This document shows positions 4,970 to 10,061 of a DNA stretch of 64,000 bases, in pieces. Position numbers and translations under genes: made by a program. The notes under the pieces were generated by a model. The model saw only the letters and a program-made list of their open reading frames with translations, did not search any database and was not told the origin of the DNA. Each line of letters begins with the position of its first letter. Within the stretch, counting starts at the first letter, position 1. Source of the DNA: Oceanicola sp. 22II-s10i (GTDB taxonomy: Bacteria > Pseudomonadota > Alphaproteobacteria > Rhodobacterales > Rhodobacteraceae); assembly GCF_002210105.1 (NCBI RefSeq), contig NZ_AQQU01000006.1, positions 62,001 to 126,000 of the forward strand, written 5' to 3'.

Positions 4970-5757
4970 GGCCTGTCCCCTTTCTCGGCAAGGCCCGCCG
5001 CCTGCCGCTCTTCGGCGGTCAGGAGGTCAGCGGCGAGGATGTGGTTCAGCACCCAGGGCTTCAGCCCGTCCAGCGCCGACAGCCGACCGGAGCGCAGCGA
5101 TCGGACGGCCGCCTCGGCTTCAGACCGGACCATCGGGTTATCCGAGGGGGTGCCATTTCGGACCGCGTCTGCGGCGCGGGCGTTATGGGAAAGATCTGGG
5201 TAATCTCCTATATATGGAGAAAAGGGTGCACCGGTGCACCGTGGGGGGGGCATCTGCGCCCCCTTTTCAGATCCCGAAAAGGGGGCACCAGCGCCCCCTT
5301 TCGACGGGGCACCCACGCCCCCTTTTAGCGGCACGATCCGGGCGCGGATCAGGAAGCCGTAGACGTTGCTTTTGCCCCGCCCGGCCCCGCTGCGCTTGAC
5401 GATCAGAGAGGCGTTCTCGAGTTCCTTCAGGGCCCGCTTCACGCTGTCAACGGATGTCCCGCACGCGCTCGCCAGCTCCGGCTTGGTCGCATGACAGCGC
5501 GCGACATCGCGGTTCGCCAGACGGCCAAGCGCCATTGCATGTGCCACGACCTTCGTCATCGCGTTCAGGTCAGGATCCCTGCGGATGCCCTCCAGCCACG
5601 AATGGCGCTCGACCTTCCAGTCCCGATCGGCGATCAGACTGCGCCCTTCCGGCGCCGTCACATCGTCCGTGCGGACCTCCGATCGAGCGGTCTCAGCCGC
5701 TTTCTGCACCTGCTCTGCCTCCATGCCTGTAGCGCCGGCGAAATCGCCGAGCGCCAA
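4966..5757 (-). CDS. Phage replication initiator with winged HTH and internal iterons
   Basis: 263 residues from a TTG at 5757 preceded by AAGG; an in-frame ATG at 5724 is an alternative start. The N-terminal half (about 40-135) looks like a replication-protein winged helix: LNAMTKVVAHAMALGRLANR, then ATKPELASACGTSVDSVKRA and LIVKRSGAGRGKSNVYGFLI. It is followed by a low-complexity linker with repeated GGxGAP units (about 140-175) and a C-terminal tail. The DNA coding for the linker holds GC-rich iterons and a perfect palindrome, as in phages whose origin lies inside the initiator gene. The role is inferred from the domain and the iterons. Confidence 0.75.
   Translation of the reverse strand: MALGDFAGATGMEAEQVQKAAETARSEVRTDDVTAPEGRSLIADRDWKVERHSWLEGIRRDPDLNAMTKVVAHAMALGRLANRDVARCHATKPELASACGTSVDSVKRALKELENASLIVKRSGAGRGKSNVYGFLIRARIVPLKGGVGAPSKGGAGAPFSGSEKGAQMPPPRCTGAPFSPYIGDYPDLSHNARAADAVRNGTPSDNPMVRSEAEAAVRSLRSGRLSALDGLKPWVLNHILAADLLTAEERQAAGLAEKGDRP
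5204..5220. repeat. AT-rich inverted repeat beside the iterons
   Basis: TCTCC and GGAGA flank a TATATAT core. It is the most AT-rich spot in the replication gene and lies next to the GGTGCACC palindrome and the iterons, so it is a candidate DNA-unwinding element. Confidence 0.4.
5225..5326. other. Candidate phage replication origin (iterons and palindrome)
   Basis: Three direct repeats of the form GGGGCAYCnrCGCCCCCTTT occur at 5247-5267, 5282-5301 and 5306-5326, each itself partly palindromic. A perfect 16-bp palindrome GGTGCACCGGTGCACC lies at 5225-5240, joined to an AAAAGGG in inverse orientation. All are inside the coding region for the linker of the replication initiator, which explains its GGxGAP repeats. 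Iterons within initiator genes mark origins in lambdoid and many other temperate phages; the origin call is inference from that pattern. Confidence 0.55.
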
Positions 5758-6911: not shown

Positions 6912-7264
6912 GCGCACGCCTCCGGTTGGGCGGGCCGCAACGATGGGAGGAGACCTATCTGCGACCCGCCAGGCATGGCGGGGCGACACTCACGAGACCG
7001 GCGGCCGCGCGCCCCTTGCGGTACGGCTGAAGGAAGGGCGAAGAACCCCTGCCGGTGCTGACCTGACCGAAAAAAGGGGCACGAGCTTGGGTGTCGCCCG
7101 CGCCCCAGTTTCAGGGAGGTGCCACGCGAAACCCGGCGCGACACGGGATGGATCGGGGCGCGACGCGGGCAGGCACCGCGCCCCTCGGGCACTGCATCCC
7201 CATGTGCAGACCCGGCAGTGCCGCACAGGCGCGCGGCGTTCGGTGAGTGGTGTATGCGGATCAA
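6908..7264 (-). CDS. Possible small coupled phage ORF, doubtful
   Basis: An open frame of 118 residues lies between the CII-like gene and the HTH gene. It begins with a TTG that overlaps the upstream stop (TTGA) and ends in an ATGA overlap with the next start, as coupled genes in this operon do. The product is rich in R, P, G, S and H and shows no domain, so it may instead be noncoding. Apart from this frame I see nothing in the roughly 350 bases. Confidence 0.3.
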   Translation of the reverse strand: MIRIHHSPNAARLCGTAGSAHGDAVPEGRGACPRRAPIHPVSRRVSRGTSLKLGRGRHPSSCPFFRSGQHRQGFFALPSAVPQGARGRRSRECRPAMPGGSQIGLLPSLRPAQPEACA

Positions 7265-7674
7265 TCCGATGCCCCCTCGGCCTGAAGATGCGCGAGGAAG
7301 CGCTGTTCCGCGGCGATCGCCTCGGTCAGCTCCTTGATCAGACCGGACCGATCCCCGGCCGTCAGGTGGCGCAGGACCGCATTCGCGACATCGCCGTTCT
7401 CAGCGATGACACGGGCCGCGAGCGCCTCGACTTCGCCCTGAGCCCCACGTCCCTCGCGACGCCCATGCAACAGGCCGGTGATCGGCCAGTGCTCAAGCTC
7501 ATCCTCCAGCGCCGCCCAATGCTCGACCGGGATCTGCATATGCCCGGCCATCTCTTTCGAGATCGTGCCCTTGGTGCAGCGAAGAAACGAAGCCGCCGCC
7601 TCCACCCCCCCGAAGTCTTCGACCAACTGGCGGAACAGGGCGCGGATGGCCGGACCATCATAGGGGCGCTTCAT
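7261..7674 (-). CDS. CII/Cro-like phage transcriptional regulator
   Basis: 137 residues from the ATG at 7674, preceded by GAGG; upstream in-frame sequence looks noncoding. Residues about 8-60 form a HTH domain (AIRALFRQLVEDFGGVEAAA, then LRCTKGTISKEMAGH), followed by IPVEHWAALEDELEHWPITG and a helical C-terminus. The layout matches the small regulators found just after cro in alphaproteobacterial prophages. It is the first lytic-operon gene left of the inserted cargo genes, so in the ancestral phage it was probably transcribed from the cro promoter. Confidence 0.68.
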   Translation of the reverse strand: MKRPYDGPAIRALFRQLVEDFGGVEAAASFLRCTKGTISKEMAGHMQIPVEHWAALEDELEHWPITGLLHGRREGRGAQGEVEALAARVIAENGDVANAVLRHLTAGDRSGLIKELTEAIAAEQRFLAHLQAEGASD

Positions 7675-7769
7675 GTGGAAACCTCGTTTCCTTTGCCGGA
7701 TCGGGGACCGATGGCATTGTGACGGCATGAGAGGGATGCCGCAGGCGAAAACAGGAGGCACGGAGACAT
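7674..7769 (-). CDS. Possible 31-residue leader ORF
   Basis: A frame from ATG 7769 to a TGA overlapping the start of the CII-like gene (ATGA). Its start overlaps, as TGATG, the stop of the antisense tail encoded by the 47-bp repeat. The product (MSPCLLFSPAASLSCRHNAI...) has no recognisable domain. It is listed because of the two overlaps, not because of the protein. Confidence 0.25.
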
Positions 7770-7811
7770 CACGCGGCACCCCTTTCATCTTGGCAGGTGA
7801 CGCGGAATCGC
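7765..7811. repeat. 47-bp direct repeat, copy 1, flanking prophage cargo gene
   Basis: Matches 8298-8344 at 43 of 47 positions (core GCAGGTGACGCGGAATCGC is identical). The copies are 533 bp apart and enclose the small exported-protein gene. Read leftward, each copy would encode the same tail, R-F-R-V-T-C-x-D-E-R-x-A-A followed by TGATG. Confidence 0.9.
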
Positions 7812-7843
7812 GGCAGGGTGGCGGTCTTTGAAGGGGGTGCGGA

Positions 7844-8299
7844 ATGCCACAGATCATGGGCATGCTTTTGATAGTCGTCTGTTCCGCAACGACCGCATGT
7901 GCACATCCCCAGGAGACTGTATGGGAGATGAATGCGTCCGGGTTCACAATTGGCGGACATCCGAACGGTCAGATGGTCTGCAAAGACGGTACCATGCACA
8001 CGCCTGTCCTCAGCGCCAGCTGTTTGCCATCCCGCGTAGTCAAGTTGATCAATACATGCGCCGAAGGGGAGTATCGCACCTACTTTGGCGATCACGGCCC
8101 ATTGACGAAGGAGCGCGCGCCGACGGTTGTTTTCGGAGACGCTGCAAACATGACATTCGATGCGTTGATGTCCCACCACCTCATGCTGGTCGAGTATTTG
8201 GGCCATCCGTCCTTTCGGCAGGCGCTGATCTTCGACCTCACCGACTTTCCTGTGACCGTTTACTCCAGACCAGACCGCTGCGGTCTCTGGCAGAACTGA
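7844..8299 (+). CDS. Small exported protein of unknown function, prophage cargo
   Basis: 151 residues from the ATG at 7844 with GAAGGGGG just upstream. The N-terminus MPQIMGMLLIVVCSATTACA is hydrophobic and looks like a signal peptide; LIVVC could also serve as a lipobox, so the protein may be a lipoprotein. The rest has four more cysteines (near 46, 60, 72 and 147), consistent with disulfides in the periplasm. I recognise no family. It is transcribed against the lytic operon and enclosed by 47-bp direct repeats, as expected for an acquired gene expressed in the lysogen. Confidence 0.62.
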   Translation: MPQIMGMLLIVVCSATTACAHPQETVWEMNASGFTIGGHPNGQMVCKDGTMHTPVLSASCLPSRVVKLINTCAEGEYRTYFGDHGPLTKERAPTVVFGDAANMTFDALMSHHLMLVEYLGHPSFRQALIFDLTDFPVTVYSRPDRCGLWQN

Positions 8300-8344
8300 C
8301 ATCAAGCGGCATCCCTTTCGTCTTTGCAGGTGACGCGGAATCGC
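8298..8344. repeat. 47-bp direct repeat, copy 2
   Basis: Begins at the stop codon of the exported-protein gene and ends 35 bases before the start of the WYL/TerB-like gene. Same sequence as 7765-7811 with four differences. Confidence 0.9.
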
Positions 8345-8379
8345 TTCATCCTCGATCCCACGCAGGGGGAGAGGTGACG

Positions 8380-9420
8380 ATGCGACTTCTGGACTGGCTG
8401 TATTCCAGGGCAAGCCACAGCGGCAGCACGGTACCGCCGCCTCCCGTCGTCACGACGCGCATCGATGTGCATCCTCCATCGGAAGGCAGTTTCGATGACG
8501 ACGAGCTGCTCGACGACGACGACCTTGACGAAGACATCTTCATCCCCGACCCGGACACTCTGACGAAGGAAGAGTTGCCGGCATGGCGGCATGCGGTTCT
8601 GAATAATGCCAATGCAGCACCGCGCACCCAACTGGCGGCAACGACAAGAACGGAAAAGGCACAGCCCTCCGCCGAGGTCATCGCGGATCTCGAGGATGTA
8701 TACGTGATGATCGACTACCTCGATGCGCGGGGTCAAGCGAGCCGCCGCCGGATCACGATGCGGAAGCTCGTGGCCGGAAGTCACGGCCCAATCGTCCGGG
8801 CGATCTGCCACGAACGAAAGGCACTGCGGTCTTTTCGATACGATCGCATCCAGTGCTTCATTGATTGCGCGGATGGCGAGGTGACCAGCCCCGATATTTT
8901 CTTGCGAGAGGTGCTGCTGATTAACCTTCTGGAGGTTACACCCTCTGATCGACCTCAGACACACATCGGCGATCACGCCGCCGGATCGGATAAGCTGACG
9001 CTCATCGGCGCTCGGGAAATGCGCGAGCGTCTGCGTGCGCCGCTTTCCATGCTGGTGCTCGCCGCGACTTCGGATGGACATTTCCACCCCGAGGAACTCG
9101 ACGTGATCTGCCGCTGGATCGAGGACGAGGTTGACGACATGGTTATGCAAGGCGCTGTGGGCTTGGCTGAGATCGACGCGATGACCAGCTTGGTCGCCAA
9201 GATGCACCCGACCCGCGCCAGCTTGACGACCCATCTCATGAACGTGCGGCGGATGGACAGCATCCGATTTCGTCGGCTTGCAAAGGCGCTGCGGGACGTC
9301 ATCGTAGCTGATGGCGCGCTGCACATTGACGAAGCCCGGTTCTATGCTGAGATCGGCGACCTTCAGACCGATAACATTGTCGATTTGATTGCTGAGGCCC
9401 GCATGAGGAACTTTCACTGA
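8380..9420 (+). CDS. WYL-like plus TerB-like domain protein, prophage cargo
   Basis: 346 residues from the ATG at 8380, behind GGGGGAGAGG. The order is: short N-terminus; a strongly acidic stretch (DDDELLDDDDLDEDIF, about 38-53); a WYL-like domain (about 104-180, VYVMIDYLDARGQASRRRIT through CHERKALRSFRYDRIQCFID); and a TerB-like helical domain (about 210-340) with two D-G-x(5)-E signatures, SDGHFHPEELDVI and ADGALHIDEARFY. WYL domains sense ligands or nucleic acid in many defence-associated regulators, and TerB domains occur in tellurite and phage-stress systems. There is no DNA-binding HTH. It converges on cro, ending 11 bases from its stop. The exact function is unknown. Confidence 0.72.
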   Translation: MRLLDWLYSRASHSGSTVPPPPVVTTRIDVHPPSEGSFDDDELLDDDDLDEDIFIPDPDTLTKEELPAWRHAVLNNANAAPRTQLAATTRTEKAQPSAEVIADLEDVYVMIDYLDARGQASRRRITMRKLVAGSHGPIVRAICHERKALRSFRYDRIQCFIDCADGEVTSPDIFLREVLLINLLEVTPSDRPQTHIGDHAAGSDKLTLIGAREMRERLRAPLSMLVLAATSDGHFHPEELDVICRWIEDEVDDMVMQGAVGLAEIDAMTSLVAKMHPTRASLTTHLMNVRRMDSIRFRRLAKALRDVIVADGALHIDEARFYAEIGDLQTDNIVDLIAEARMRNFH

Positions 9421-9431
9421 AAGTGTCTCGG

Positions 9432-9653
9432 TCATGCGGCAGCCTTCCCGGCTCGTGCCGCTGCGAGTTCACGTGCATCGAGCGAAATCCCACGCCGATT
9501 TGCCCCGTCCAGCAACGCAATGTCATGTCTCCCCGGGACGCGCCCGCGCTGAAACCAGCGATGAACCGCAAAGAGATCAACACAGCAGTCGTCTGCGATC
9601 GCTTGGCGCGAAGGCCAACGCTGAAGGAGAGCTATAACTGAAGAGTGATTCAT
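9432..9653 (-). CDS. Cro-like repressor
   Basis: 73 residues from the ATG at 9653. The sequence MNHSSVIALLQRWPSRQAIA, then DLFAVHRWFQRGRVPGRHDIAL and RGISLDARELAAARAG matches the short Cro/YdaS-type HTH proteins (W-P-S-R-x-x-x-A, V-x-x-W-x-x-R-x-x-x-P, R-G-I). It is divergent from the CI-like repressor, with operators between them. Very little sequence separates the candidate promoter from the start, so the mRNA may be nearly leaderless. It would be the first gene of the lytic operon. Confidence 0.75.
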   Translation of the reverse strand: MNHSSVIALLQRWPSRQAIADDCCVDLFAVHRWFQRGRVPGRHDIALLDGANRRGISLDARELAAARAGKAAA

Positions 9654-9659
9654 ACCTTC

Positions 9660-9688
9660 AATTAATGACCATTTCGGTCATCAGTCAA
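9660..9688 (-). promoter_or_regulatory. Candidate cro promoter overlapping operator O1
   Basis: Read leftward: TTGACT at 9688-9683, a 17-bp spacer that contains the whole operator TGACC-N5-GGTCA (9666-9680), and a weak -10 TTAATT at 9665-9660. The start codon follows at 9653. The -35 and operator are clear; the -10 is poor. Confidence 0.45.
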
Positions 9689-9723
9689 GAGGACCGAAAT
9701 GGCGATTGAGACCAAAATGGTCA
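9666..9723. promoter_or_regulatory. Repressor operators O1-O3 in the cro/cI region
   Basis: O1 at 9666-9680 is the perfect palindrome TGACCATTTCGGTCA apart from its centre. O2 at 9691-9705 is a degenerate copy (12 of 15) that covers the cI start codon. O3 at 9709-9723, AGACCAAAATGGTCA, lies in the first codons of cI. The CI-like or Cro-like protein is the likely ligand; O2/O3 would give autorepression. Confidence 0.65.
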
Positions 9724-10061
9724 CAGATCAGTATCCCCCCATGTCCGATGCACCAAAAAAGCTGGTCCCAGCCACACTCTCCTTTGAGATGCGCCCCGAT
9801 CGCATAGGGTATCGCCTTAGCTTGCTGAGGCGAGCAGTCGGCATGGAGAAGGCGGAGATCGCCGACACGCTGGGCATCGAACGGACATATTGGTCGCGTT
9901 TCGAAAACGGCAAGAGACCAGTCACTGAGGCTGTAGCCGCACTCCTGGTTGATCGGTTCGGTGTGACGCTGGACTTCCTCATCCTCAACAGGTGGGGTGG
10001 CCTGCCGTTAGATTTGGCGGAGAAAATGCGCTCAGTCGCCGCCGGAGACCAGAAAATCTAG
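9699..10061 (+). CDS. CI-like XRE-family prophage repressor
   Basis: 120 residues. Residues about 33-95 form a classical HTH-XRE domain: RIGYRLSLLRRAVGMEKAEI, then DTLGIERTYWSRFENGKRPV and EAVAALLVDRFGVTLDFLIL. There is no C-terminal peptidase domain, so induction would not use LexA-type autocleavage unless another factor is involved. It is divergent from the Cro-like gene, and its start codon lies within operator O2. Its 3' end overlaps a convergent small gene by 30 bases. Confidence 0.82.
   Translation: MAIETKMVTDQYPPMSDAPKKLVPATLSFEMRPDRIGYRLSLLRRAVGMEKAEIADTLGIERTYWSRFENGKRPVTEAVAALLVDRFGVTLDFLILNRWGGLPLDLAEKMRSVAAGDQKI

Follow-up and report, generated by a model that had tools for sequence, protein, structure and literature searches.

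The switch region of a prophage in Oceanicola sp. 22II-s10i holds two genes that run against its leftward early operon, each lying downstream of a copy of the same 47-bp direct repeat. This arrangement raises the question of what the interval between cro and the CII-like gene represents, and how it came to be filled. The original prediction, made on the window (the whole 64,000-nucleotide stretch analysed, part of a 5.1-Mb genome, G000:C36), took the repeats for the duplicated end of one lost early gene and an ATG at the cro stop for its beginning, with cargo placed between them by two successive insertions at a hotspot. The reading favoured here, with a probability of about 0.64, is that the interval is a moron slot lying where cI-cro modules are exchanged, and that lysogeny-side genes have entered it two or more times; on induction, the converging early transcript would silence them.

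Layout of the locus and its direct repeats

In the direction of the early genes, the order is the cro-like gene, gene 2 (plus strand), repeat B, gene 1 (plus strand), repeat A, ORF2 and the CII-like gene (Table 1). ORF positions and strands bear out the predicted opposition between cargo and lytic operon. The names cro and CII-like are labels given by position, with no family match above cut-off; the CII-like protein has weak matches to Pfam Phage_CP76 (E=0.098) and to the PHROG CII-like family (E=0.043). GC content is 56% in gene 1, 60% in gene 2, 66% in the CII-like gene, 57% in CI and 60% in cro. ORF2 was considered as a conserved protein and rejected, as a codon signal is absent from it (5/10/9 differences at codon positions 1/2/3). 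Over 10.4 kb, the viral contig L018 is 100% identical to the window.

Table 1. Features of the switch region, in window coordinates
Feature	Position	Strand	Remarks
CII-like early gene, 137 aa	7261..7674	-	Name from position; anchor of the comparison
ORF2, 32-codon open frame	7671..7769	-	Chained by TGATG/ATGA between repeat A and the CII-like gene
Repeat A	7765..7811	-	Last 13 codons and stop of a candidate old cro-like frame, plus ORF2 start
Cargo gene 1, 151 aa	7844..8299	+	N-terminal signal-peptide-like stretch by eye; orphan
Repeat B	8298..8344	-	Second copy; frame opens at ATG 8349
Open leftward frame MTETLSVKVP...	8302..9435	-	Register antisense of gene 2 over gene 2
Cargo gene 2 (WYL-TerB), 346 aa	8380..9420	+	Pfam WYL, fold model
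Cro-like gene, current	9432..9653	-	Name from position; homologous cro in L106
CI-like repressor (HTH)	9699..10061	+	HTH match

Both repeats were recovered where they had been predicted. They agree at 43 of their 47 bp (91%), start 533 bp apart, and form the only plus-strand self-match of the 64-kb window listed at blastn E<=1e-4 (E=6.6e-11). With up to three mismatches allowed, the window contains two occurrences of the 19-bp repeat core where 0.06 would be expected, and 2 of 100 shuffles reached this count. A common dispersed repeat, an explanation that the original prediction had set against itself, was rejected: there are two copies in the host's own genome, two contigs with the repeat in viral_contigs (one being the prophage itself) and a single record in genome_contigs. 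When a 144-bp query was compared with the host genome, it recovered both copies and three short matches (E 1.8e-4, 0.18 and 0.18), the best of which sits in an unrelated chromosomal gene.

The copies are not equivalent in coding terms. Repeat B forms an entire mini-ORF of 15 codons that starts at an ATG (MKRFRVTCKDERDAA and stop, 8302-8349), and in repeat A (LPRFRVTCQDERGAA and stop) the upstream end lacks this start codon. The distance from the repeat end to the cargo ATG is 32 bp for gene 1 and 35 bp for gene 2, and the gene 1 stop shares two bases with repeat B.

The cro 3′ boundary and the slot beside it

The repeats were placed in context by comparing 30 loci with a CII-like gene (13 kept of 16 places, plus 9, plus 8, two of the last 10 being repeats). 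L014-L016 were left out as C-terminus-only matches within frames of more than 900 aa. Cro-like genes were chosen by position, as the first same-strand upstream ORF resembling a small regulator. In 23 of the 30 loci, cro is the immediate upstream neighbour of the CII-like gene; the gap between them is 10-246 bp (80-120 bp in 19 of the 23), and many gaps were taken up to the first residue matched instead of the ATG. One such empty locus, L106, has both a cro (37%, E=2.6e-9) and a CI (26%, E=2.8e-7) homologous to those of the window. The 246-bp gap, in L065 (G312), carries an 86-aa same-strand frame in place of ORF2.

Repeat A has its stop 94 bp away from the CII-like ATG, where the cro stop is located in the empty relatives. 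A boundary made of AA codons and a stop that overlaps the next start (TGATG or ATGA) is common to many unrelated cro genes: 19 of 30 cro genes end in AA-stop and 10 of 30 in [DE]AA-stop, compared with 35 and 9, respectively, among 340 coding-like ORFs from the loci retrieved. Binomial values for the AA-stop excess ignore kinship and hence overstate it; such ends are non-independent among related loci, the ATGA overlap may itself favour them, and 11 of the 30 cro genes end otherwise. The present cro-like gene ends in AAGGCTGCCGCATGAC, a version of the same boundary as the repeats, and the exact string GACGCCGCCTGATGTC is common to the cro ends of L104 and L106 and to the repeat of P. nanhaiensis DSM 18065. 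None of the relatives compared has a cro with the full C-terminus RFRVTCxDERxAA.

Because the boundary is common and the stop of repeat A lies where cro stops, the repeat most likely represents the last codons of an older cro, the identity of the parent gene being judged from position and boundary. The predicted early-gene end, kept and duplicated in the repeats, is supported.

The same boundary appears as a site of exchange. CII-like proteins of L061, L062 and L063 are nearly identical, and their cro genes are unrelated. Upstream of the CII-like ATG, L061 and L062 share 95% identity over 60 bp, 84% from -118 to -60 and 17-29% beyond, and blastn finds no match between their cro bodies. The crossover is placed at the cro 3′ end since identity falls off there; in pairs with L063 it lies nearer, inside ORF2. 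To judge from these alignments, related phages exchange whole cI-cro modules, with crossover at the cro 3′ end. The unrelated cro genes of L061, L062 and L063 resemble the mosaicism of lambdoid phages, in which cI-Cro modules with dissimilar Cro proteins are reported to be transferred together (PMC9836094). In contrast to that co-transfer, the breakpoint described here is at the cro 3′ end, and cargo enters there.

Reversed cargo occupies this slot in seven of the 30 loci and is of six kinds, the filled slots measuring 460-1757 bp; the hotspot after cro that had been predicted is therefore supported. The window has its two genes, and L059 and L035 each have a WYL-TerB gene. L039 carries a 94-aa gene (PHROG 13590, E=2.4e-10), L045 a 161-aa gene with no family, L048 a 249-aa gene (DUF4145 below cut-off; PHROG 1305, E=1.6e-20) and L102 a 107-aa gene with no family and a signal-peptide-like start by eye. 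A resemblance of the L102 product to HdeA was considered and set aside, as Pfam gives no support for it. All eight cargo genes run against cro, a 1 in 256 outcome if orientations were random and independent, which the three WYL-TerB genes are not. Cargo genes were picked as the coding-like frame of each slot; the opposing frame is also coding-like in L039, L045 and L048, and the strand was settled by the PHROG matches for L039 and L048, and by composition and eye for L045 and L102.

Two loci outside the 30 bear on the slot. L037 (G267), which has no CII homologue, carries WYL-TerB reversed directly after cro. The Rhodobacter phage RcapNL (L122) is the sole named phage relative of the CII-like protein (two records, 31%), and its annotation has no reversed gene at the slot. 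Between the first rightward gene after its repressor and its CII-like gene, RcapNL has a gene of 95 aa on the same strand, together with a gap of 180 bp. In L038, WYL-TerB lies among what appear by eye to be chromosomal genes.

Morons are characterized by an extra gene between the neighbours of relatives, variation at the site, a promoter and terminator of their own, distinct composition and prophage expression. At this locus the cargo separates cro from the CII-like gene, which are neighbours in 23 of 30 loci, and its kind varies at the same site (six kinds, 7 of 30). The two-gene moron-like insertion at a recurrent slot is real. The literature searched yielded no earlier report of a cro-CII cargo slot, and the portions of a Rhodobacteraceae prophage survey that were consulted mention neither Pseudooceanicola nor morons nor hotspots (PMC8224337).

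The two cargo genes

Gene 2 joins a WYL part to a TerB-like part. Its WYL match (PF13280) scores 23.2 bits against a cut-off of 21.8, and its TerB match 21.6 bits, under the cut-off of 24.4. Among homologues, WYL scores are 21.7 in L035 and 21.5 in L036, just below the cut-off, and 18.6 in L059; TerB scores are 30.5 in L035 and 35.0 in L036, above the cut-off, and 16.1 in L059. The structure model (pLDDT 67.8) contains a five-strand part at about residues 100-161, the predicted WYL barrel, and an all-helical, TerB-like part at about 201-342, preceded by a disordered, acidic N-terminus in which residues 16-56 and 77-96 have pLDDT below 50. Gene 2 is matched in 11 other genomes out of 295, seven of these matches covering little beyond the WYL part. 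PADLOC returns generic WYL matches only. Among viral contigs, gene 2 matches its own prophage only, in a scan insensitive enough to miss P. nanhaiensis.

The combination itself has precedent, as gene 2 resembles reported WYL-TerB fusions (PMC4012209). WYL has been proposed as a sensor of nucleotides or nucleic-acid fragments in defence (PMC4012209); for TerB, a ligand-sensing role has been proposed in Ter systems with which jumbo phages might counter superinfecting phages (PMC7824862). With a WYL match above the Pfam cut-off and the WYL proteins PafBC, CapW and BrxR as its top-ranked fold matches (best E=3.6e-3; no Foldseek match under E=0.001), gene 2 is similar to the defence sensors BrxR and CapW. 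Unlike these, it shows no detected HTH or N-terminal winged helix of the BrxR/CapW type, its N-terminus is acidic and disordered, and it is a single gene in a prophage switch.

Gene 1 is an orphan. Its frame has the best codon score of the six, narrowly ahead at -0.114 vs -0.176, its structure model is unusable (pLDDT 36), and Pfam, PHROG, PADLOC, NCBIfam and PDB give no matches. Credible relatives are absent from 295 family, 22 genus and 292 order genomes and from viral contigs, phages and plasmids. Weak hits fall in 11 places (E 3e-4 to 0.08), seven of which were inspected: six lie inside what we take to be phosphoglucosamine mutase, and the seventh (L114) is in an unrelated 171-aa frame. 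These hits were accordingly taken as chance rather than as relatives. The phage and plasmid collections likewise hold no match to the repeat or slot DNA, to gene 1 or to gene 2.

Probable order of insertion and possible silencing of the cargo

The locus of P. nanhaiensis DSM 18065, the sole genome_contigs record with the repeat, carries a single repeat together with WYL-TerB and lacks gene 1. The flanks of its repeat resemble the surroundings of repeat B on the WYL-TerB side and those of repeat A on the ORF2 side; gene 1 accordingly lies within a repeat that was split and doubled. The claim of two successive insertions gains support here, as P. nanhaiensis displays the WYL-TerB step alone, although the order of the steps is inferred.

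The same comparison would allow a reverse history that departs from the favoured reading in event order only, namely an ancestor with both genes and a later loss of gene 1 in P. nanhaiensis through recombination of one repeat with the other. Deletion between direct repeats would be precise and leave one copy, as in L059, and the three copies are about equally different (by 4, 4 and 3 of 47). However, a credible gene 1 is absent from the other 21 genus genomes, which give weak hits only, so that this order is possible yet clearly the less probable.

Rather than a scar, the 47-bp unit may be a selected element, either a 15-codon leader mini-gene or a common operator or promoter duplicated with each cargo gene. 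The ATG of repeat B and of the P. nanhaiensis copy, an AGGAG ribosome-binding-like site seen by eye in the latter, the 19 bp identical across all three copies and the similar spacing of the repeats 5′ of the two cargo ATGs are consistent with such an element; the ATG-led copies fit a selected mini-gene as well as they fit a scar. Set against this, the ATG is missing from repeat A, the 3′ half of the repeat resembles the cro-end boundary of relatives, and a sigma-70-like promoter was not found at the repeat. We consider a selected element rather unlikely.

Gene 1 with one repeat could also be a small mobile cassette that recombined into the scar and is able to leave it, as suggested by the repeat-gene-repeat structure and by the overlap of the gene 1 stop with repeat B. 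Yet this is a single example, the other genome_contigs record holds one repeat copy, and none of the four genes from CII-like to CI is recombinase-like. An integron-like cassette was weighed on structure alone, a second repeat-flanked gene not having been found, and the proposal is improbable.

The weakest reading is the one from which the original prediction started, a single early gene that began MTETLSVKVP, ended RFRVTCxDERxAA and was interrupted by the cargo. Read leftward, MTETLSVKVP...RFRVTCKDERDAA is indeed an open frame of 377 aa, and the corresponding frame is also open in P. nanhaiensis (338 aa). However, MTETLSVKVP is read off the 15 bases past the gene 2 stop and from there along the antisense of gene 2, in codon register; the frame cannot close over gene 2 because gene 2 contains no TTA, CTA or TCA codons, and by codon usage (five training genes) about 16% of genes this size, or 1 in 6, would be antisense-open. 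Domain matches, homologues and the differences from P. nanhaiensis at codon positions 1/2/3 (108/72/157 over 295 aligned codons) establish that the WYL-TerB strand is the coding strand of gene 2. In the 23 relatives with an empty slot, cro directly adjoins the CII-like gene, and in P. nanhaiensis, the only genome_contigs record to carry the RFRVTC end, WYL-TerB once more intervenes. The prediction was to fall if no relative had an intact gene with both ends; a search found none. Of the two proposed ends, the 'end' stands as phage sequence, kept and duplicated, and the 'start' is lost as antisense of gene 2, which makes one split gene extremely improbable.

Under the favoured reading of a recurrently filled moron slot, WYL-TerB would have entered reversed at the cro 3′ boundary, and the final codons of an older cro would have stayed behind as a scar beside ORF2 and the CII-like gene. 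Gene 1 would then have entered the scar and duplicated it, giving scar, gene 1, scar and WYL-TerB. From the orientation of the genes, CI in the lysogen would shut the cro promoter and the cargo would be transcribed rightward; upon induction, the leftward cro-CII transcript would run antisense through the cargo and turn it down. The scar may serve as a common 5′ region of both cargo genes and keep translation flowing into ORF2 and the CII-like gene. WYL-TerB might respond to nucleic acids or nucleotides as a signal, with a role in defence or in sensing superinfection, and the gene 1 product might be exported and act at the envelope.

A simple-consensus scan, untuned to the host, gave no rightward sigma-70-like promoter or terminator-like site at the cargo. 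Within 7200-9900, six terminator-like sites are present against 1.6 expected, all leftward, three of them within gene 2 and one at repeat A. These sites speak against simple read-through: if real, they would stop the silencing transcript before the CII-like gene unless it were antiterminated. More generally, the cro 3′ end could be a reusable docking boundary at which reversed units of gene plus boundary stack in tandem, with the early transcript silencing the cargo, a generalization that we regard as doubtful.

Known switch cargo offers partial parallels. In lambdoid phages, the switch morons rexAB and bstA lie between cI and N, at a hotspot of mosaic diversity, and bstA follows cI and uses its promoter (PMC8585504, PMC7067206). 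The present locus similarly has lysogeny-side cargo in an immunity region that is a hotspot of mosaic diversity, whereas its cargo is on the other side, within the cro-CII operon and opposed to it. In L036 (5669-7170), WYL-TerB lies directly downstream of a gene that by eye is a CI-type repressor, the usual bstA/rexAB position and thus closer to those loci. Antisense placement to lytic genes is described as characteristic of morons, for example STMMW_20121 of prophage ST64B (PMC7067206). The cargo here shares that placement with STMMW_20121, but it is located inside the regulatory switch, next to a cro-end boundary that is present in duplicate.

If this reading is true, the reversed cro-CII slot would offer a straightforward guide to unknown lysogeny genes with defence, exclusion or envelope functions across a large marine family, the Rhodobacteraceae. 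The locus would also be a concrete case of switch modules recombining at a common gene end.

Two minor features lie nearby. A palindrome-like GGAAACGAGGTTTCC at 7677-7691, just 5′ of the CII-like ATG, recurs in varied versions in most of the relatives inspected at this place; it could act as an operator or form an RNA hairpin that covers the ribosome site. At 5246-5325, within a replication-initiator-like gene, three copies of a 21-nt repeat are 81-90% alike and have the form GGGGGCA...GCGCCCCCTTT, with hairpin-forming arms.
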